A stretch of DNA of 64,000 nt, from assembly GCA_020683205.1 (NCBI GenBank), contig CP085689.1:2294001-2358000 (forward strand), read 5' to 3'. Under the pieces are notes generated by a model. That model was not told the DNA's origin and did no database searches. It saw nothing but the letters and a program-made list of their open reading frames with translations. Positions within the stretch are counted from its first letter, which is position 1. Every line of letters starts with the position of its first letter. Both the position numbers and the translations under genes were made by a program. Below are positions 11,750 through 53,857 of the stretch, one piece after another. The stretch is from Lentisphaerae bacterium WC36 (GTDB taxonomy: Bacteria; Verrucomicrobiota; Lentisphaeria; Victivallales; SZUA-371).

Positions 11750-11826
11750 GTACCTGTAGCTCAGTTGGATAGAGCGTCTGCCTCCGGAGCAGAAGGTCGT
11801 GGGTTCGATTCCCGCCAGGTATACCA
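11750..11826 (+). tRNA. tRNA-Arg (anticodon CCG)
   Basis: A complete cloverleaf: acceptor GTACCTG with CAGGTAT, U8-A9, D-stem GCTC/GAGC, anticodon stem TCTGC/GCAGA around loop CTCCGGA (anticodon CCG, reading CGG), and T-stem GTGGG/CCCGC with loop TTCGATT. The CCA end is encoded (11824-11826). The phage integrase starts 142 bases downstream, so the 3' half of this gene is the likely attachment site (attL side). Confidence 0.95.
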
Positions 11827-11872
11827 TTTTTTTATATCAATTTAACCTCAAAATTTAACTTTCACTTGCAAA

Positions 11873-11950
11873 TGTCTTATATTGTCTTATATTGTCTATA
11901 TAGCCAAAAGGTATACAAATGGTATACAAAAGGTCTACAAATGGTATACA
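11873..11950 (+). repeat. Two phased direct-repeat arrays upstream of the integrase
   Basis: Three copies of a 10-base unit (TGTCTTATAT at 11873 and 11883, then TGTCTATATA at 11893) are followed by four copies of GGTATACA (11910, 11921, 11932 as GGTCTACA, 11943) exactly 11 bases apart. The helical phasing suggests integrase arm sites or Xis/repressor operator sites. They end 17 bases before the integrase start codon. Confidence 0.7.
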
Positions 11951-11967
11951 TATTTTCGAGGTGAATA

Positions 11968-13212
11968 ATGGCAAGAAAAAAAGGACAAGGTTCGATTTTT
12001 TTACGGGGACAAACGTATTATTTGAAATATCGAGTTAATGGCAAAAGCAAAACTATTAGCTTAAAAACTACAAATCAAGAAAAAGCTGAAGAAGAAGCAA
12101 ATAAATATTTTTTGATAACTCAAGCACAAAATATTGAAGAAATAGCCCTCTTTACAGGACGAGCTAAAAAAATTATTAATGAAATTAATAAAATTGAATT
12201 GAAAGACACTTTCAAACAATTCAAAAATAGCACATTACGTCCCGAGTGTAGTGAAAAAACTTTAAATCAACATCATTTGCATTTAAAAACGTTGCTCAAA
12301 TGGCTAGAAACAAAGCCACAAATTAAAGGCTTTGCAGATTTAGATCGAAATATTTTAGAGCAATTTTTTGCAGATTTAAACAGTAAAAATAATGCAATTA
12401 AATACAACCGTATTCTCAAAAGTTTAAAATTAATTTATCGAATTATTGAACCAGAGAAAGTAAATCCATTTAAATCTTTTAAAAAATTAATTGAAGAAAA
12501 CCACGAACGCAAAGAATTTACTCAAACCCAAATTAAAAACATTTTTGCAGTTTTTGACAATAAAAAATTTCATCTCATGCATAAAAAAGAGATGAAAATT
12601 TTATTTAAATTGGCGGTTTATACCGGAATGCGTTTGAAAAATTGTGCATTAATAGAGTGGAATGATATTGATTTGGAGCGCAATTTGATTAGTTGTATCC
12701 CTTTTAAAGGGCGTAGATTTTCAAAAAAACCGCTCTTAATTCCAATCCATAGCAACTTAAAAAAATCTTTATTTAAATTAAATCAAAAGAAAAAAGGTTC
12801 ATATGTTTTGACCGAAGTTGCTAGAAGATACGAATATAACCCCACTGGGGTACAAAAAGATTGCACAAAAGTTATAGATTTTTCATTTTTTGACCCTATA
12901 AAAGATGAGAAAATAACTCGCAATAAAGATTATAGTTTTCATTCGTTTCGTCATTCTTTCGTGTCATTTTGTGCCAATGCAAAAGTACCGCTTCATGTAG
13001 TCCAAGAAATTGTTGGTCATAGCTCACCTGCAATGACTCGTCATTATACACACGTTAATAATGAGGCAATGCAAGAAGTTGTTAAGGCTCTTGATTTTGA
13101 TAAAAATACCATTTCAGAAACTGAAAAATTAGCACAAATTGCTAAAGTTATTAGCGATAAAAAACGCAAAAGCGCTAGTGACAAACAAATTTTAGAAATT
13201 TTAAAGAAATAA
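11968..13212 (+). CDS. int: Phage tyrosine integrase
   Basis: A 414-residue tyrosine recombinase for site-specific integration at the adjacent tRNA-Arg. An N-terminal arm-binding region (1-60, 'GSIFLRGQTYYLKYRVNGK') precedes a SAM-like core-binding domain (about 75-175) and the catalytic domain. Catalytic residues are visible: Arg222 ('TGMRLKN'), His325 and Arg328 ('SFHSFRHSF'), His351 ('VGHSS') and Tyr360 ('RHYTHV'). The start is preceded by GAGGTG. It is the only plus-strand gene in the left 20 kb of the prophage and is convergent with the late genes. It looks intact. Confidence 0.95.
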   Translation: MARKKGQGSIFLRGQTYYLKYRVNGKSKTISLKTTNQEKAEEEANKYFLITQAQNIEEIALFTGRAKKIINEINKIELKDTFKQFKNSTLRPECSEKTLNQHHLHLKTLLKWLETKPQIKGFADLDRNILEQFFADLNSKNNAIKYNRILKSLKLIYRIIEPEKVNPFKSFKKLIEENHERKEFTQTQIKNIFAVFDNKKFHLMHKKEMKILFKLAVYTGMRLKNCALIEWNDIDLERNLISCIPFKGRRFSKKPLLIPIHSNLKKSLFKLNQKKKGSYVLTEVARRYEYNPTGVQKDCTKVIDFSFFDPIKDEKITRNKDYSFHSFRHSFVSFCANAKVPLHVVQEIVGHSSPAMTRHYTHVNNEAMQEVVKALDFDKNTISETEKLAQIAKVISDKKRKSASDKQILEILKK

Positions 13213-20437: not shown

Positions 20438-23400
20438 TTATTTGCCTCCAAACTTAAGTGCATTTTTACGATTTTGCTGTAATATTTTCTTCGTATTGTT
20501 TGCAATCTCACTATTTGTATCAGCTATTTTTTTTTGTAAATTACTTCCAGCACCTGCGGCAAGAATTTTTAATTGTGCCACGCTAGTACTACCTGCTGGG
20601 GCAACGACATCTTGTACTTTCTTTTGAGTTTGCTGCATTAATGATGCAAGGGTGCGTTTTAAATAATCTTTCTTACTGTTGCTTTGATAATATTCTGCTT
20701 TTGCCTTATCTATTTTTTTTTGATCATCAGTTGCACCGCTATTATCTTTAACAGCCTTTTGCCAGGCTTTATCTAATTGAGCAGTTTTTTTTGTAACACT
20801 TTGAAGTAATTTATTTATCATGTCACGAGCGCTAGTTAATTTGCCATTATCAACAAAAAGCTTTATTTTAGCATTTAATTGTTCTCGATATTGATTTTCT
20901 TGACGATTTTTTTCCATCAAATTATAATCATTTTGCGCCTGCTCAACAATAGAGCGTTTACGCTCTTTTTCCATAGCGGTTAACTTGCGTTGTTCTTCTG
21001 CGGTTTTTTGTAGTTTCTTTTGATATTCAGTTTCGGCTTTTTGTTTATTTTTTACATAAAGCGCAGCATGACTAGTTTGTAAATTTTTAGCATTAATTAA
21101 TTCTTTATTTGCCGCATGGTAACTATTAAAATCTTGCTTTTTAGCGGCTAAATTCATCTTTTGTTGTGCTAAAGAAACTGATTTTTTAATAATTTCTTGC
21201 TCTTTACGGTACAACTTAGTAAGATCATCAATTCTTTTTTGATGTTCTGAAAGCTGCGCTCTACGCATATTTTCAACTATTTTAGCTTTCTCTTTAGCGT
21301 GTTTTTTTACCTCTTCATTTGCTTTACGTAACGTTTCTTGCTCTTCAGCGAATAACTGTTCATTGCTTTTAGCATCTTGACCAGCTATTAATGCCTTTTT
21401 TTTGCCTAGATCAGCACCATTATTGCTATTTAATATTTTTTGTTCTTTTTGTAATTTTTGTAATTTACTGCTGACCTCATTAACTTTGCCTTGTAGTTCT
21501 TTCAATCGCGCCATGTCATCAGCAGAAATTTTATCATAAATTCCAAATCCTAAATTTTGTCGCAACCAACTACCTTTAGAAATTGCTTTGATTTCATCAT
21601 GTGCTTGAGAATATTGTATTTTTAATTCTTCTATAGCTTTATTATTGGCGTGTTTTGCCATTGCTAACTGTTTATTAACAAAAATATTTTCACTGCCATT
21701 GCGGACCGTAAATTTCTTGGTTGTTTGGTCAAAAGCGATACCAATATCACCATATTTTTGTTGTAGTTCATCAAGAGCTTTTGCCGTTTCTTTGATGGTT
21801 TTTGAATCAAAAACATTACCATTGCTTGCAACTTGCAATACTCTCTGATACTTAAAACTATCATCTTTGCGGTCATTTTGTGCTTTTTCATGAAGTTTTT
21901 GCATATGATCATTAAATTCAGTCGCTTCAATATTTAATTGTCCCATTTTATAAGCTAATAACCCAATAACCGCTGTTACAGCTACAAATGTTGCCGCAAT
22001 CGGATGCGCGCAAACAGCACTAAATGCACCACTAACTGCTAAGGTACTAACTGCTAAAGATTTTTGTGCTAAATTTAATGTTAGCGTTGCCCCGCTACTT
22101 GCTGCTGTTGCCACGGTATGACGAACTGTTGCTAAAGAAAGAGCATTCTTTAAAGTTATACCAAAGGTGGCTAATCTATTACTTGTTGCTGTTGCTAAAT
22201 TTGCAAGCTTTGCTTTGACCATCGCTGTATTTTGCGCCAATGAAAAGCTTTTAGTCGAATTTAAAAGCTTGCGCTGATTATTATCTAGCAGTAACATTTT
22301 TAAAGCCCATTGATTAACCTTACTATTTGGCGCTAAATGCCATAACTTTAAATATTGTTCAGTTATTTTTGTCAATCTTTTTTGCGCTAAAATATTGCTT
22401 TTTATAATTTTTTGCTTTTTTGCAAAACCACCAATTCCTGAAAAATTGCCACCAGGTATTTTTTGAGCAGCTTTTAAATCTGCTAAACGTTTAATATTAT
22501 CAATAAGAGTACTATAATTACTGCTCATTGCTTGCAAAAATTTACTATTTACTGCAAATTTATTAGTAACTAAAGAAATATTTTTACTAGCAATTTGCAA
22601 AGTAGTACTTAAAACATTAATAACTCCATGTGTGATTTTCACCGCTCCGCCAGTCGATAGTGCCACTGCCCCAAAAAGTGCAAAAGCAGCGGCTCCTTGT
22701 GTAAGAACAGCAACTAGATGTTGATTATTATTAATAAATTCAGTTGCTGCCGTTAAACTATTTTTAATCGAATCTATAAACTCACTACCGCTGTAATTGC
22801 TAACTATTTCGCTAAATTTATTACCAAATCCTTCTAAAGCACTGTATGCTAAACGTAAACTACCACCAATACCAGCATCCATATTTTTTGCTGTGCGCTC
22901 GGCTTCACCATTAATAGTTCGTAACTTTTTGAAAAAGTTTTCTAACTGTTCATTATTCTCCGCCAATGTTAAACCTGCTAATGAGCCACGTACATCAAAA
23001 ATATCTTCAGCAAACGAAATTTTTTCAGCTGTTTTCATATTGCTCATTGCGTGTGATAAATCGCGGAAAATATCAGCCATTTTGCGTAAATTTTTATTAC
23101 TGTCAAGCGTCTCAACGCCAATTGTGCGCAACTTCTTTTGAATTGAAACTTTAGCAAAATTCATATAAGCTTTACGTAATGCGGTACCTGCGATGCTTCC
23201 TTTAATACCAAAATTAGCCAATGTCCCAATTGCCGCCGCAACATCCCGAATATTTTCACCTGCGGCGCTGGCTTGTGGTCCAGCCATCTTTAAACTTTCA
23301 AAAAGATCGGTTAAAGTTTGACTTGAGCCATTTGCCGTCACCGTTAAAATATCGGTAACTTTGCTCATATCTTGAGCTTCAATTTTAAAAATACGCATAC

Positions 23401-23854
23401 TATTTGCGGCAATATCACTTGCTTCAGCTAAATCTGTACCTGTTGCACGTGCTAAATTTAACACGTGCTCAATACTATTAGTAATCTCGTCGCCACTAAA
23501 ACCCATTCGTCCAAGCGCAACCATCGCCGCTGCGACCTGTTGAGCTGTAAAACTAGTCGTACGTCCTAAAACTTTGGCTCTTCTACTTAATTTTTCAAAC
23601 TCTGCTCCAGTAGCCTTGGTCACGGCTTGCACTAAGCGCATATTATCATCAAAGTTAGCAAAATGCTTGGTCGCCAACACAAATGGAGTCCCAACCATTG
23701 CCCCAAAAATTAACATCTCACGACCAATACTTTGCACACTAGCCGCAAAATTACGCAATTTTGCTTGAGCATTGCGTAAATCTTTACTCAATTTGCTATC
23801 ATTGGCGGCAATTTCAACATAGGCACGCCCTGCTCTGATATTACTAGCACTCAT
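20438..23854 (-). CDS. Tail tape measure protein (TP901 core family)
   Basis: At 1138 residues it is the longest phage gene here. Residues about 60-300 match the TP901 tape measure core ('LGRMGFSGDEITNSIEHVLNL' region). Hydrophobic stretches lie near 375-405 and 605-630 and long Lys/Gln/Glu-rich coiled coils in the C-terminal half (about 700-1050). It sets tail length and passes through the membrane at injection. Preceded by the chaperone pair, as in other siphophages. Confidence 0.9.
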   Translation of the reverse strand: MSASNIRAGRAYVEIAANDSKLSKDLRNAQAKLRNFAASVQSIGREMLIFGAMVGTPFVLATKHFANFDDNMRLVQAVTKATGAEFEKLSRRAKVLGRTTSFTAQQVAAAMVALGRMGFSGDEITNSIEHVLNLARATGTDLAEASDIAANSMRIFKIEAQDMSKVTDILTVTANGSSQTLTDLFESLKMAGPQASAAGENIRDVAAAIGTLANFGIKGSIAGTALRKAYMNFAKVSIQKKLRTIGVETLDSNKNLRKMADIFRDLSHAMSNMKTAEKISFAEDIFDVRGSLAGLTLAENNEQLENFFKKLRTINGEAERTAKNMDAGIGGSLRLAYSALEGFGNKFSEIVSNYSGSEFIDSIKNSLTAATEFINNNQHLVAVLTQGAAAFALFGAVALSTGGAVKITHGVINVLSTTLQIASKNISLVTNKFAVNSKFLQAMSSNYSTLIDNIKRLADLKAAQKIPGGNFSGIGGFAKKQKIIKSNILAQKRLTKITEQYLKLWHLAPNSKVNQWALKMLLLDNNQRKLLNSTKSFSLAQNTAMVKAKLANLATATSNRLATFGITLKNALSLATVRHTVATAASSGATLTLNLAQKSLAVSTLAVSGAFSAVCAHPIAATFVAVTAVIGLLAYKMGQLNIEATEFNDHMQKLHEKAQNDRKDDSFKYQRVLQVASNGNVFDSKTIKETAKALDELQQKYGDIGIAFDQTTKKFTVRNGSENIFVNKQLAMAKHANNKAIEELKIQYSQAHDEIKAISKGSWLRQNLGFGIYDKISADDMARLKELQGKVNEVSSKLQKLQKEQKILNSNNGADLGKKKALIAGQDAKSNEQLFAEEQETLRKANEEVKKHAKEKAKIVENMRRAQLSEHQKRIDDLTKLYRKEQEIIKKSVSLAQQKMNLAAKKQDFNSYHAANKELINAKNLQTSHAALYVKNKQKAETEYQKKLQKTAEEQRKLTAMEKERKRSIVEQAQNDYNLMEKNRQENQYREQLNAKIKLFVDNGKLTSARDMINKLLQSVTKKTAQLDKAWQKAVKDNSGATDDQKKIDKAKAEYYQSNSKKDYLKRTLASLMQQTQKKVQDVVAPAGSTSVAQLKILAAGAGSNLQKKIADTNSEIANNTKKILQQNRKNALKFGGK

Positions 23855-26242: not shown

Positions 26243-26597
26243 TGGCGTTGCCCCCTCGTTTGGTGTGAACTCGTAAAATTAATTCACTATTGTCGCTATA
26301 ACGAAAACATGGCTCTTGATTAAATGAACTCACCTCAAAAAGTGTATTATCTTTTTTTATTGCATCGCCAATCTTTGGCAAACGAGCCAAACTAGCTGTT
26401 GCGATTAAAAAGTCTACACTGTTACTGTAGCGAGCAAAGTTACTGTAACTTTCATTATTAGTAAAAGTGCTTTTACCTCTGCGTGCCGTCACAATGCAGT
26501 TTGCCGTATTATCACAAAAAAGATACTCAACGCTTTCACCGCATAGCTCATTCATTTGGTCATTCAATATTTGCATATTTTCGCTAAAAATATTCAT
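26235..26597 (-). CDS. Probable head closure (head-tail connector) protein
   Basis: 120 residues, beta-rich. The middle 'SNSVDFLIATASLARLPKIG' followed by 'DAIKKDNTLFEVSS' and the ending 'SELILRVHTKR' match the small head-tail joining protein that stands between the decoration and terminator genes in related prophages. Assigned by pattern and position. Confidence 0.6.
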   Translation of the reverse strand: MNIFSENMQILNDQMNELCGESVEYLFCDNTANCIVTARRGKSTFTNNESYSNFARYSNSVDFLIATASLARLPKIGDAIKKDNTLFEVSSFNQEPCFRYSDNSELILRVHTKRGGNAND

Positions 26598-29293: not shown

Positions 29294-30718
29294 TTATCCT
29301 TGGCGTTTTTTTTCGCTCGTTAATTTTTTATTAATATCTTCTTTGGTAATGCCTAATTTTTTCATCAATGCTTGTTCTTTGGCTATTTGTAGCATTTCAA
29401 CCTCATAGTCTTTGCCCTCTTTGGCAAATTCAGCGGCGTAAGTGGTAGTTTTACTCTCAAGACGTCTACTTTGTGCATTTGCTTCTTTGAGTGGGTCGAC
29501 GTGTTCAAAACCGTCCCAAAACCAACTAATATCAGCAATTTGTAAAGTTAATTGTTTAGTCGCGACTTTATACTCTTCTAGCCATGCATAAAAAATGCGA
29601 TCGAGAGCATTTATCTCTAAATAATTGCGACAAACTCTAATGCTTTTATGATACGTTTGATGATCAAGACGACCGCTCGCATAGTTATAGCTACTTGAGT
29701 CACCAGCAGCAATATTATATGGCATTGAAATTGGTCGAGCCATCGCGGTAATAATTTCTCGCTTAAATGCTGGAAAGGTGGTTTGTGGATGTTTTGAGTC
29801 AAGTTGACTAATTTTATGGTTTGGTGGTACGACTAATAAATTATTACGCTCCATTTGAAACATATCGCCAGTATCTAATGCGAGACTTTCTTCTTCCTCA
29901 ACTTCTGAACCATCTTTATAAATAATTCCGCTGTAACTAGCGGCGAATTCAGCAGCATCAAGCGTGCTATTCATAAAACGGCGCAAATGGCTAAATGTTG
30001 GCAATGCAGAGGTAATTTCGCACACGCCACGATGTTGCTCAGTTCTTTTTGCACGAAATAAATGAATCATATATTTAGCATCAATCGTTTCAAATTCACC
30101 AGTTAATTTGCTGGCTGGTAACCAACTAGCGGTACTTCCTGGATGTTCTTTGAGAACTTTGTAAGCAATTACTTTGTTATTATCGGGATCAAAGATTAAA
30201 CCTTCACGCTCATTTGCCTTATTAATTGAATTATAATCACTTGTCACGCGGTCGGTTTCAATAAGTTGTAAATCTAATTTTACAATATGATCTAACTTGC
30301 TATCTGTAGTTAATCTAGTAAAATTTTCGCCATCAGTTAACATCGCTTTACGCACTAAACGCAATTTTTCAGCCCAATCTATCTTGCGAGTCCATTTGCG
30401 AAAACTCTGCTCAATTTCTAGTGCTTGCTTGCTATTTAAATCATTAATTTGCAGTCGTGGACCAGTACCAATGGTGTCATTTGCTAATGTTTCACGAATT
30501 CCGTCGGCATATTCATTATTGTCAATTTCATAGCGAGCACGAGTGCGGATAATTTGACGTGTAGTGCTGTTTAATATGCTATCCGCATCAAAATTATTTG
30601 CATATTGCCAATGTTTAACATTATGACGATTAGTACGCGCTACATCATAATGACTTGTGTTGCTCGCCTTAATCGTTTTTTTAGGTGCTTTTGAAATTTT
30701 CCAGCCAAGAATTTTCAT
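29294..30718 (-). CDS. Phage portal protein, lambda gpB family
   Basis: 474 residues. Diagnostic strings are 'ARYEIDNNEYADGIRETLAN' (about 66-85), 'GTGPRLQI', 'WAEKLRLVRKAMLTDGENF' and 'MIHLFRAKRTEQHRGVCEIT'. Together these mark the lambda-type portal that forms the DNA-gating dodecamer. It follows the small connector gene by 6 bases and precedes the protease-capsid gene by 6. Confidence 0.9.
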   Translation of the reverse strand: MKILGWKISKAPKKTIKASNTSHYDVARTNRHNVKHWQYANNFDADSILNSTTRQIIRTRARYEIDNNEYADGIRETLANDTIGTGPRLQINDLNSKQALEIEQSFRKWTRKIDWAEKLRLVRKAMLTDGENFTRLTTDSKLDHIVKLDLQLIETDRVTSDYNSINKANEREGLIFDPDNNKVIAYKVLKEHPGSTASWLPASKLTGEFETIDAKYMIHLFRAKRTEQHRGVCEITSALPTFSHLRRFMNSTLDAAEFAASYSGIIYKDGSEVEEEESLALDTGDMFQMERNNLLVVPPNHKISQLDSKHPQTTFPAFKREIITAMARPISMPYNIAAGDSSSYNYASGRLDHQTYHKSIRVCRNYLEINALDRIFYAWLEEYKVATKQLTLQIADISWFWDGFEHVDPLKEANAQSRRLESKTTTYAAEFAKEGKDYEVEMLQIAKEQALMKKLGITKEDINKKLTSEKKRQG

Positions 30719-35502: not shown

Positions 35503-37824
35503 TTATTTACGGTTATTTTTTATTAACTCGCTCATTTTTACCGTCTTACGTTTTTTGGTTGTTTTCTTAAAATTTTGCTCAATTAACGACACATTGTGAC
35601 TATTAGCACTCATCATGCAACCAGTTAAGCAGTCCAGCCAGTGGTTATCAACGCAATTTGGTCGTAATTTCCATTCATTGACACTACGTCCCCTGCCCGA
35701 TGTTTTAACATAATATTCACTTGTTAAATGTTCGGCAAATTGGCGGTGCTCGGTAATGCTTGAGCCATAGAGCATCAAACAGCCTTTGTCGCCAGCAGTA
35801 ACCGCCAAACGATGATGTGCAAAACTTTTGTAATAGTTGGTATCATAAATATAATGACGCAATACTCGCTTTCCGTTAGTATTGGTAATGCGCCAATTAT
35901 TGCCAACTTTATCACCGCGCTGCTTACGGTATTCGCTAAATGGCTTTGCTGAAGCCGTCACTCCGCGTCCATGACTTGGCATTAAAATATTTTTGTATTT
36001 ACTTTCGCGACAAAATTGATAAATTGTATCGCTCGTTTGTCCCCAGTTAGCATCAATAGTGCAGCAATTTAAACTTAAACTAACCTCATCTTCACGCAGG
36101 TATTCACGAGCGCAAATTTGCTCGATTAATTCACTTAAACCTTGATAAATTGCGCCCTCAACTCCTGCATTTTCAAACAGATCGCCTAACTTTACAGGTG
36201 CATTACGCAAAGTAAAATAACGGCTTGGCTGTTCGGGATAAGTGCCGTAATCAATCACACTACTTGTATAATCTTCGGCAAAAGCGACCACACAATAAAA
36301 AAGTAAATCTTTATGAATATCAATAAAAGCGGTCAAAACATTAGCATATAATGGCACGGTGTAGCGGTCTAAATTATTGATTTTTGTGCTGATAAAATCA
36401 ACTGAAAGCATCTCTTCAGCACCATCATCATTTTTCAACGGCTCGTTTTGATATTCACTAAAAAATGATTTTTCATCACGTATTTTTAGATTCATTGCGT
36501 GTTGCAGTGCACTAATTTCTTTTTCTGCATCAAAACGCTCTTTCCAACCACAACGGCTACCCTCGTCCATTTTTTCACGGTTTTTAGCATAAAATTCGGT
36601 TGCTAAGCTAAAATTACCATGCATAATCATACTATCTTTGTAAATTTCTGCATACTTTTCCCAAAGTTCAATATTAGTTGGAAATTCATAAACCATTTTA
36701 CAGCGTTCACCATTCCAACTAGGATGCAGTTCTTTATTTAAAATTTGATCTGCCATATCTTCTTGCTCAATAACCGTACACGGCATCACGCCACTTATTG
36801 ATTCACCAGGACCTGCTAAACCCAATATTGCTTGATTTAAAGTATCAATACGCTTTTTGCTTTGTTCACGACTTTTAGCACTTTCTTCTGTTTGTGGGTC
36901 ATCAATTAAAACTAAACTTGGTCGAATATTTTTATTGGTTGACGGTTTTTTGTATTTCATGCCACGAATTCGACCAGTAATACCTGCTACATCAATAACA
37001 GAACCACTCGCCATACTACCTTTAATCGTTGGTAAAATTAAACGGCGCATCGTTAATTGCATTTGAGTGCGTTCACCGTGATAAAGTTGACCACCACAAC
37101 GATTTTTAATACCTTCAATACAATTTATAGGATAACAAACTTCTGGGAAATCAGCCATTAACAGATCATTGCTGTCAAAATCAGTTAAAATCGACCGTAA
37201 AATATCTTGTGCTGCTGTTTCAGTTGCGCCAATAATCACAATATATTCATGATGTCCATATAAAACAGCCCACTTTGCAGCGGCTTCTGAGAGAGTGGTT
37301 TTACCACTTCCACGAGCCATCGCTAACGCAAATAACCCTTTTTCTAAAACAGCAGTTTCAAGCTTATTAATAACCTTTAAATGGTCATCACTCCATGCTT
37401 TGTTAAAATCCAATGGAAAATAGGTCTCACAAAATAGCTTTAAATCATATTTACAGCTTTCCTTACGCTCAGAATCTTCAATAGCAGGTAACTCGCCAAT
37501 ATCTCGTCCCGCTTGCGCTGCGGCAGCATTACGAGCACGTTCACGCTCTTTTTTCTGCTCGTATTTACTTTTCTTCTTTTGCTCAAGATAATATTTATCA
37601 ATCTTGTTACGTCTTTTTTTAGCATCAAGCAAATAAGCAAGAAAAGCAACTAAATTAATATTATTTTTACCGTTAGCACTTTTAATGTGTGGTGCAACAT
37701 TTAAATATTTATAAATTTCATTATTTTTTATAACTTCCCCGTTATCTGTTGAATTTAAAACCCTTGTTGCTTCAACAGCTGACACATTTTCAAGGTCAAT
37801 ATCAGCATATTTTTTTACTCTCAT
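35503..37824 (-). CDS. Terminase large subunit
   Basis: 773 residues. Walker A 'ARGSGKTT' (170-177) and Walker B 'SLVLIDDPQ' (Asp308-Asp309) mark the packaging ATPase. C-terminal to about 480, 'VLTAFIDIHKDLLFYCVVAF' and 'CTIDANWGQTSDTIY' supply the acidic residues of the nuclease. A Lys-rich N-terminal coiled coil (about 65-105) precedes the ATPase. The start overlaps the upstream 53-residue gene (ATGA). Confidence 0.92.
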   Translation of the reverse strand: MRVKKYADIDLENVSAVEATRVLNSTDNGEVIKNNEIYKYLNVAPHIKSANGKNNINLVAFLAYLLDAKKRRNKIDKYYLEQKKKSKYEQKKERERARNAAAAQAGRDIGELPAIEDSERKESCKYDLKLFCETYFPLDFNKAWSDDHLKVINKLETAVLEKGLFALAMARGSGKTTLSEAAAKWAVLYGHHEYIVIIGATETAAQDILRSILTDFDSNDLLMADFPEVCYPINCIEGIKNRCGGQLYHGERTQMQLTMRRLILPTIKGSMASGSVIDVAGITGRIRGMKYKKPSTNKNIRPSLVLIDDPQTEESAKSREQSKKRIDTLNQAILGLAGPGESISGVMPCTVIEQEDMADQILNKELHPSWNGERCKMVYEFPTNIELWEKYAEIYKDSMIMHGNFSLATEFYAKNREKMDEGSRCGWKERFDAEKEISALQHAMNLKIRDEKSFFSEYQNEPLKNDDGAEEMLSVDFISTKINNLDRYTVPLYANVLTAFIDIHKDLLFYCVVAFAEDYTSSVIDYGTYPEQPSRYFTLRNAPVKLGDLFENAGVEGAIYQGLSELIEQICAREYLREDEVSLSLNCCTIDANWGQTSDTIYQFCRESKYKNILMPSHGRGVTASAKPFSEYRKQRGDKVGNNWRITNTNGKRVLRHYIYDTNYYKSFAHHRLAVTAGDKGCLMLYGSSITEHRQFAEHLTSEYYVKTSGRGRSVNEWKLRPNCVDNHWLDCLTGCMMSANSHNVSLIEQNFKKTTKKRKTVKMSELIKNNRK

Positions 37825-52024: not shown

Positions 52025-52055
52025 TGGCGGATTTTTACACCGACCGCCACGGTGT
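52025..52055. repeat. Interleaved-hairpin repeat, best copy
   Basis: TGGCGG (52025-52030) can pair with CCGCCA (52044-52049) and ACACCG (52037-52042) with CGGTGT (52050-52055). The two 6-bp stems are interleaved, so they must compete, or form a compact pseudoknot. Confidence 0.65.
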
Positions 52056-52167
52056 CAAGGTATGTGCTTTTTCTTCTAGCCGTTGCACGCCCTACTTGAA
52101 AAAACGGGTTTTTTCGACCCTGCCGAGATTAAGAGCGAGAAATAAACGACAGGCTACCTCTTCGCAA

Positions 52168-52197
52168 TGGTATTTTTACACCTATTCCCCACGGTGT
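52168..52197. repeat. Interleaved-hairpin repeat, weak copy
   Basis: ACACC (52078+100, i.e. 52178-52182) pairs with GGTGT (52193-52197). The other stem is reduced to TGG/CCA. Confidence 0.5.
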
Positions 52198-52257
52198 CTG
52201 TTTTACTTCATGACATAAGAAAAAAACAGAGAAAACCTTATGCCGTTAGCGTTTTAA

Positions 52258-52273
52258 CACACCCGCCACGGTG
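52258..52273. repeat. Interleaved-hairpin repeat, weak copy
   Basis: CACC (52260-52263) pairs with GGTG (52270-52273) around CGCCAC, within the same 'CCGCCACGGTG' core as the stronger copies. Confidence 0.45.
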
Positions 52274-52349
52274 GATTATTTTTATTTTTTTGTATAGCAG
52301 AGCTATAAAAATAATCTAAAAAATCACTGCTTAAAAATCTGTTTAAAGT

Positions 52350-52381
52350 TTGGCGGGGTTTTACACCGACCGCCACGGTGT
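52350..52381. repeat. Interleaved-hairpin repeat, strong copy
   Basis: TGGCGG (52351-52356) with CCGCCA (52370-52375), and ACACCG (52363-52368) with CGGTGT (52376-52381), exactly as in the copy at 52025. It lies 18 bases past the stop of the small gene at 52399. Confidence 0.65.
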
Positions 52382-52762: not shown

Positions 52763-53134
52763 ATGTCAAAATTCGGAACAAAACTAAAGCAAAATATTAA
52801 ATTAGCTGGCTTGACCAATATTGAGTTTGCAGAAAAAACAGGATTGTCTGCAAATTATGTTTCAATTTTAATTAACGATAATACTAGATTGCCAAAGCTT
52901 GACAATTTTAATAAAATGTTAGAAGTTTTAGAACCTAGAATTTCAACTGACGACTTTTTAGACTTATCTCAAATCTATACCGTTGAAAAATTTGGGCTTG
53001 CAAATAATAAATTGATTAACGACCTTTCAGATGAAGAGCAAAATGTTATTAATAGCTTTAAATTATTAACTGACCACCAGCAATTTTTAATTAAAAGCCA
53101 AATTGAAGAGTATAGGCGTTTAAATTTAAAATAA
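52763..53134 (+). CDS. XRE-family repressor-like regulator
   Basis: 123 residues. The N-terminal helix-turn-helix (about 10-50) has 'NIEFAEKTGLSANYVSILIN', then a helical C-terminus without a LexA-like peptidase domain. AAAGGATAG stands before the ATG. It is divergent from the early operon and is the best candidate for the lysogeny repressor, of the non-cleavable type. Confidence 0.8.
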   Translation: MSKFGTKLKQNIKLAGLTNIEFAEKTGLSANYVSILINDNTRLPKLDNFNKMLEVLEPRISTDDFLDLSQIYTVEKFGLANNKLINDLSDEEQNVINSFKLLTDHQQFLIKSQIEEYRRLNLK

Positions 53135-53291
53135 CTCTGTATAACTTGATTGATTGGATCATTAATACAGTTTTGTGTTAGTCGTCTTTTTGGGTGTGTA
53201 AATTGCGACAAAATAGATTTTAAAAAACTCATAGTGTAACTTCCTAATTTAGATAATTAATTGAAATTTTGAGCTTTTTAAAATTATAGAA

Positions 53292-53441
53292 AGTCGGGCG
53301 TTTAGAACCTCTGCACCAAACGATCAGAGTATGCAACTTTTCCACAAGGGTATTGTATAGCTGCATCCACCCGACAAATATAGCAGTCGGCACGCAAAAA
53401 TATTGCGTGTATGTTTGGTTATTTTACGGGTTCTAAACCGC
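53292..53441 (+). ncRNA. Probable C4-type phage antisense RNA element
   Basis: A 150-base structured block. The ends pair: TTTAGAACC (53301-53309) with GGTTCTAAA (53429-53437), extended by GCG/CGC. Inside are CCGAC/GTCGG (53371-53375 with 53386-53390), CACGCAA/TTGCGTG (53391-53397 with 53403-53409) and ATGCA/TGCAT (53331-53335 with 53362-53366). GTCGGG (53293-53298) can also take CCCGAC (53370-53375). The plus strand reads 'CIHPTNIAVGTQKYCVYVWL', which I know from Ash/C4-associated phage sequences. C4 RNA of P1 and CI RNA of P4 act by antisense pairing in immunity. Strand is likely plus but not proven. Confidence 0.65.
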
Positions 53442-53857
53442 ATTTTTTAACTTAACTTATTTTATCAGAATTTCAATTTTTCCAATAAAATTATAATATA
53501 AAAAGCTCGCTTGATTTAAAAACTTTTAAATTTTGCAATTTTTTACATAATTTTCTCCTATTGTTAAATTCCCCCATAATTTAGATTATACTACTTTATT
53601 TAGTATTGCAAATAAAAATTGTAAACTATTGATTGTAAAAAACTTATCAAACTTATAACAGTCTAAAACGTTAAAATATCTAACCATAATTAACAATTTT
53701 ATAATCAAAATATTAGAAAGATAAACTAAAAAATATTAATCTAATCTAACAAATAATTTAAGTTTAATATTATTTAGCATATAAATATTTGCTTTTATAC
53801 TCAATTTAAACTATTTTAGACAATTCATTTAATAAATTAAAACAACAAGAGGTGAAT
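53442..53857. other. Gene-free AT-rich stretch
   Basis: 416 bases between the RNA element and the small membrane genes. I see no open frame, clear repeat or strong promoter pair in it. It may hold the targets of the RNA or the start of the 53858 operon. Confidence 0.4.

Follow-up and report, generated by a model that had tools for sequence, protein, structure and literature searches.

The block at 53292-53441 of the window (the whole stretch of 64,000 nt of the Lentisphaerae bacterium WC36 genome that was analysed) probably encodes a C4-type antisense RNA that is a divergent relative of sRNA-Xcc1 (RF02221) and would confer immunity by a switch in its own leader. This reading draws on folding, covariation between copies and comparison with related loci. 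The sense strand of the RNA is the minus strand, which corrects the earlier note on this DNA. That note had proposed a C4-type element and, with it, an extension of C4-type control to a distant host; the architecture, the base-pairing logic and the phage-type repressor neighbour all support the first proposal, and the second stands as a type of mechanism in a non-proteobacterial host, but in neither case does membership of the C4 family itself (RF01695) survive. The features on which the argument rests are collected in Table 1.

Table 1. Features of the element and its surroundings, in window coordinates
Feature	Position	Strand	Evidence
Phage-type XRE/HTH_3 repressor gene (123 aa) that converges on the RNA	52763..53134	+	Pfam HTH_3, 5.9e-06
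Module, five times in the genome, starting at the last codon of differing XRE genes	53129..53786		blastn, 89-94% identity over ~660 bp
Promoter-like site TTTGCA-16-TATAAT, identical in 5/5 copies	53585..53612	-	10/12 consensus; consensus match only
AGGAG-6-ATG-TAA start-stop site in the predicted leader, identical in five modules	53543..53559	-	Sequence directly
a1, leader segment complementary to a'	53429..53441	-	GCGGTTTAGAACC; pairing in 5/5 copies, compensatory changes
b1, leader segment complementary to b'	53413..53419	-	ACCAAAC; pairing survives changes to ACTAGAT and ACCAAAGA
Hairpin ACACGCAATATTTTTGCGTGC after b1	53390..53410	-	Phage relatives have a hairpin and T-run there
GCCGAC, competitor for the 5' strand of the closing stem	53386..53391	-	Sequence pairing
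Predicted Xcc1/C4-like antisense RNA, 83 nt	53293..53375	-	RF02221, 36.5 bits, E 8.1e-05
ATACAATACCC, conserved core of hairpin 1	53348..53358	-	Agrees with RF02221 consensus
b', loop of hairpin 2	53315..53321	-	Fold and pairing
a', between hairpin 2 and closing stem	53298..53309	-	Unpaired in 83-nt fold; pairs with a1
Putative 85-aa ORF where an antirepressor gene usually lies, overlapping the XRE gene in antisense	52975..53232	-	SD AGGAAG 53240-53245

A structured element that favours the minus strand

The block had been described as closing on its own ends around internal stems, and folding bears this out. The terminal repeats TTTAGAACC (53301-53309) and GGTTCTAAA (53429-53437) are both present, complementary and paired, the internal stems are recovered, and a 161-nt stretch folds far below its dinucleotide shuffles on either strand, with -48.5 kcal/mol on the plus strand (z -4.1; 0 of 200 shuffles as low) and -48.8 kcal/mol on the minus strand (z -3.8). 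Equally borne out is the rivalry of two G-rich segments, GTCGGG (53293-53298) and GTCGG (53386-53390), for CCCGAC (53370-53375); in the minus-strand reading, the partner of GTCGGG is either GCCGAC upstream or CCCGAC downstream. The same arrangement, with a competitor of the GCCGAC type, is visible in loci of Xanthomonas and Rhodanobacter.

The preference for the minus strand emerges from an 83-nt fragment that is 5-10 kcal/mol more stable on this strand than on the plus strand, where the equivalents of its retained wobble pairs are A-C mismatches. On the minus strand the fragment has hairpins 1 and 2 within a closing stem; b' occupies the loop of hairpin 2, and a' is unpaired between this hairpin and the closing stem. 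Length and fold are the same in all five genomic copies (z -2.3 to -5.2).

Relationship to sRNA-Xcc1 and to C4

The search with the Rfam C4 model that the earlier note had called for was run, and RF01695 had no match in the window, either at the gathering threshold or at E up to 10, whereas P1 scores 68.8 bits. Nor did the c4-a1b1 model (RF03163) find one, also at E up to 10. Since RF01695 is without a match, the window RNA does not belong to the C4 family as modelled. The only significant Rfam match of the window is sRNA-Xcc1 (RF02221), on the minus strand (36.5 bits, E 8.1e-05). The five copies score 33.7-43.4 bits (E 6.7e-04 to 3.4e-06; best copy 43.4 bits) and all align over the full length of the model (positions 1-87 of 87), but all five lie below its gathering threshold of 53 bits, and the window RNA is thus a divergent relative of RF02221 and not a curated member.

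What RF02221 itself is can be read from the loci in which it occurs. Its consensus was found by blast in temperate phages, and the RNAs of annotated phages score 65-86 bits. Directly 3' of them are ant/KilA-N genes in Aaphi23, the Stx phage vB_EcoP_phi296, the Pasteurella phage Pmp3, Rac-SA53 and Acinetobacter phage 4316, and in Moraxella phage Mcat15 the RNA lies upstream of an unnamed gene. These phage leaders are organised as for C4. Aaphi23 is an example: its loop word CTGTTTG finds a match both in ACAAACAG, which lies upstream, and in ACAAACAGGAG, which lies at the Shine-Dalgarno site of ant. P1 is annotated with the same order of elements (a1, b1, C4, a2, b2). A core scan of genomes and viral contigs yielded 240 loci, and the survey set comprised the 147 distinct loci in which a gene begins 75-115 nt past the core. 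Both a1 and b1 (words of at least 6 nt) are present in 132 of these 147 loci, against 35 with leaders exchanged among loci, and b2 lies within 22 nt before the ATG, at the Shine-Dalgarno site, in 84 of them, against 7 after the exchange. Another 49 have a1/b1 without b2, many of them in Xanthomonadaceae, symE cassettes included; in Xanthomonas, symE cassettes keep a1/b1 and a terminator-like hairpin and have no b2 at symE. Proteins encoded downstream carry P22_AR, Rha, KilA-N, AntA, BRO-N or ORF6N domains in the viral contigs, and those in the genomes match many antirepressor PHROGs. Given the ant/KilA-N context and the locus-specific a1, b1 and b2 of the survey, RF02221 is a C4-type antirepressor antisense RNA family.

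The canonical form is also found close to the window in taxonomic terms. The genome of the uncultured Lentisphaerae bacterium bin-3387, which belongs to the same GTDB class, has two canonical loci, each with a1/b1 and a2/b2, one of which precedes what we take to be a P22_AR_N-like Ant gene and the other a presumed Rha-like gene (domain names read from the sequences).

The family has been read differently in the literature, as a virulence regulator or as vesicle cargo (PMC2996969, PMC12444791, PMC12189769), and an open-access literature search returned, among its best matches, no paper that pairs sRNA-Xcc1 with an antirepressor. Other mRNAs could be targets of the window RNA in trans, the role proposed for sRNA-Xcc1 of Xanthomonas and Xylella, with its complementarity to the leader only part of its own folding. 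This seems improbable: Xanthomonas does transcribe sRNA-Xcc1, with a length of 88 nt (PMC2996969), and homologues were detected in Xylella vesicles (PMC12189769), but the locus-specificity of a1/b1 and the placement of b2 at the next gene start in the survey point to a target in cis, and neither the XRE mRNA nor the single BRO-N gene of the genome, which was tried as a target and rejected, pairs better than shuffles. Since the XRE mRNA does no better than chance, the occurrence of TTTAGAACC at 52927-52935, inside the XRE gene, is taken as fortuitous.

Nor is the block likely to belong to the XRE mRNA as a structured 3' end, serving as a plus-strand terminator or stability element, a reading to which we give only a slim chance. 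The block does lie ~160 nt past the XRE stop codon and its one terminator-like match falls on the plus strand (53390-53410), but the better fold, the wobble pairs that become A-C mismatches on the plus strand and the RF02221 match all favour the minus strand.

The downstream stretch and the search for targets

The gene beside the RNA was described in the earlier note as an XRE repressor, in agreement with its matches to Pfam HTH_3 and to a PHROG transcriptional repressor (4.6e-06). The likeness of the plus-strand read-through peptide to Ash-associated sequences found no such backing, the peptide having no match in Pfam, Ash (PF10554) included. On the minus strand, the ATG of the downstream ORF, with its Shine-Dalgarno sequence AGGAAG, lies ~106 nt past the core, where the 5-95% range of the survey is 80-104. 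The absence of recognised antirepressor genes downstream is confirmed: the ORF has no ant-type or antirepressor match in Pfam or PHROG, its peptide was not found elsewhere in the GTDB class, and Rha and KilA-N are absent from the genome. The variable sites of this ORF fall 5/6/7 by codon position, which gives no sign of protein selection, and a synonymous-codon null yields five P values of 0.025-0.85 (Fisher-combined by hand, ~0.08). In view of the equal codon positions and this spread of P values, the downstream product may be an ORF or plain antisense RNA over the repressor gene, and a predicted transcript that would extend into the complement of that gene suggests control of the overlapping ORF or of antisense transcription.

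A search of the window for segments complementary to the RNA recovered the known a1/b1 sites and no second target. No a2/b2 pair was found downstream or elsewhere in the window, where a search for a-like followed by b-like words returned the known sites only. A 10-nt complement of b' at 26255-26264 (minus strand), which overlaps the ribosome site ahead of a structural-gene start, was judged a likely chance match.

Five modules and their covariation

The host genome (3.66 Mb, one contig) carries five copies of the block, each within a module that is conserved across its full length. Each module abuts a different XRE/HTH repressor-like gene, the five repressors being different from one another, and each XRE stop codon lies 98 nt from a conserved ATG on the minus strand (ORF coordinates). 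At 3,498-3,500 kb, two modules with their XRE genes stand in tandem in one prophage-like island, with differing a/b types.

Variation is concentrated in the RNA, where the mean pairwise mismatch among the five copies is 17-28%, against 0.8-8% in flanks that are 92-99% identical. The start-stop site of the leader is without independent support because these flanks are equally invariant. The upstream targets a1 and b1 match a' and b' exactly over 9 and 7 nt and covary with them. Covariation among homologues, which the earlier note had raised, is thus present, with compensatory changes in both long helices (a1:a' and b1:b') as well as in hairpins 1 and 2, and rests on five sequences, all from one genome. 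The a1:a' variants are TTTAGAACC:GGTTCTAAA, CGGTT(T)CAAACC:GGTTTGAACCG and CGGTT(T)CAAATC:GATTTGAACCG (with one bulged T), and those of b1:b' are ACCAAAC:GTTTGGT, ACTAGAT:ATCTAGT and ACCAAAGA:TCTTTGGT. Because the five copies keep both long helices by compensation while their flanks are nearly constant, the block is more than a product of chance. The helix that the earlier note took for a closing stem does exist, but its identity is that of a target-antisense pairing, a1:a', with b1:b' adjoining; since a1 and b1 are complementary to a' and b' across the copies, the outer helix is best seen as the target bound to its own antisense.

The same comparison weighs against a relic, that is, a C4-type leader that has lost its target gene and keeps its structure by inertia. 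Such a history would account for the missing a2/b2, the missing antirepressor gene and the hairpin ACACGCAATATTTTTGCGTGC, after which the minus strand of the window has no T-run, but we consider it very doubtful, as the RNA changes faster than its flanks and yet keeps its pairing in every copy, which speaks for selection. Least probable is a DNA element spread with the modules (an integron attC-like site, a MITE or a recombination hot spot): there are several copies with near-identical flanks, and sRNA-Xcc1 is known from integron cassettes (PMC12444791), but all copies sit at the same place relative to the XRE gene, a constancy that makes integron attC identity unlikely, the core changes by compensation and wobble and has several branches with conserved loops, and copies in unrelated contexts with target-site duplications were not seen in the genome.

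Comparison with known systems

The element shares with RF02221 loci the closing stem, hairpin 1 with ATACAATACCC, hairpin 2, the free a' and the upstream a1/b1; a candidate ATG with a Shine-Dalgarno sequence lies at nearly the distance usual there (about 80-105 nt downstream), and its want of a2/b2 recalls the 49 of 147 surveyed loci without b2. It differs from them in its score below the gathering threshold, in the hairpin after b1 without a T-run and in lying beside a repressor gene instead of an ant or symE gene. C4 of P1/P7 (RF01695, RF03163), which is processed to ~77 nt and keeps the synthesis of antirepressor down, likewise has two hairpins, b' in a loop, a' preceding the closing strand, a1/b1 farther upstream on one transcript (a predicted one in the window) and an immunity context. 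The window element differs in resembling neither the C4 nor the c4-a1b1 model, in having no a2/b2 at an icd/ant ribosome site and in the convergent orientation of its repressor gene. Like the proposed window RNA, the CI RNA of P4 has its target upstream, within its own leader, and needs no ribosome site downstream; P4 immunity additionally has seqC downstream, in a seqA/seqB/seqC arrangement that makes transcription terminate. The OOP RNA of lambda is, like the predicted window RNA, a short transcript convergent with a regulator gene and with a possible antisense effect on its 3' end, but it lacks a C4-like fold and target segments of its own.

Proposed mechanism

A C4-type leader switch would work as follows. 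The leader transcript would begin near 53580, from the promoter-like site at 53612-53585, and would run through its own targets a1 and b1, then the 83-nt RNA, then on toward the 3' end of the convergent XRE gene, the hairpin-2 loop b' and the free strand a' being antisense to the leader's own b1 and a1. In a lysogen, the 83-nt RNA, once processed (closing stem GTCGGG:CCCGAC), would pair with a1/b1 on newly made leaders, whether of the same prophage or of a superinfecting relative, and block productive downstream expression, and a superinfecting or induced copy of another a/b type would escape. When the 83-nt RNA is absent, read-through of the leader would yield the downstream product, either the overlapping ORF or an RNA antisense to the repressor, and this product would serve as antirepressor. 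As the window has no a2/b2, the leader itself would need to be the point of control, by termination, for instance, or by a two-state fold. The leader may well be such a two-state switch, because within one transcript a1:a' and b1:b' pairing excludes target binding and GCCGAC:GTCGGG pairing excludes the closing stem. More tentatively, and on balance unlikely, immunity could be switched without any antirepressor protein, read-through of the leader into the XRE complement itself being the antirepressor and the five modules forming separate immunity groups.

Prophage context and significance

The prophage is largely complete (14-55 kb), with a tRNA and integrase region at 11750-13212 and genes for a tyrosine integrase (11968-13212), tape measure (20438-23854), portal (29294-30718) and terminase (35503-37824); an attR repeat of the tRNA end was not found within the window. 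Tandem 11-nt direct repeats (CAAAWGGTATA) lie at 11905-11959, just 5' of the integrase gene, and TTTTACACCGACCGCCACGGTG-like repeats, possible operators, lie upstream of the XRE gene (52030-52380) and recur near the other modules of the genome. Neither relatives of the XRE protein nor the exact DNA pattern of the window core were found in viral contigs, and comparison of the block with phage records gave weak AT-rich matches only.

Read as a C4-type antisense RNA, the element would place a form of RNA immunity known from proteobacterial phages (P1, P7) in prophages of the Lentisphaerota class, where it would exist both as the divergent version in the window, which lies within the PVC group, and as the canonical version that accompanies Ant/Rha genes. 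At the same time, a family catalogued as a 'virulence sRNA' of plant pathogens, sRNA-Xcc1, would gain a testable function in antirepressor control, and the clustered sXF RNAs of Xylella would then be candidate prophage immunity RNAs.
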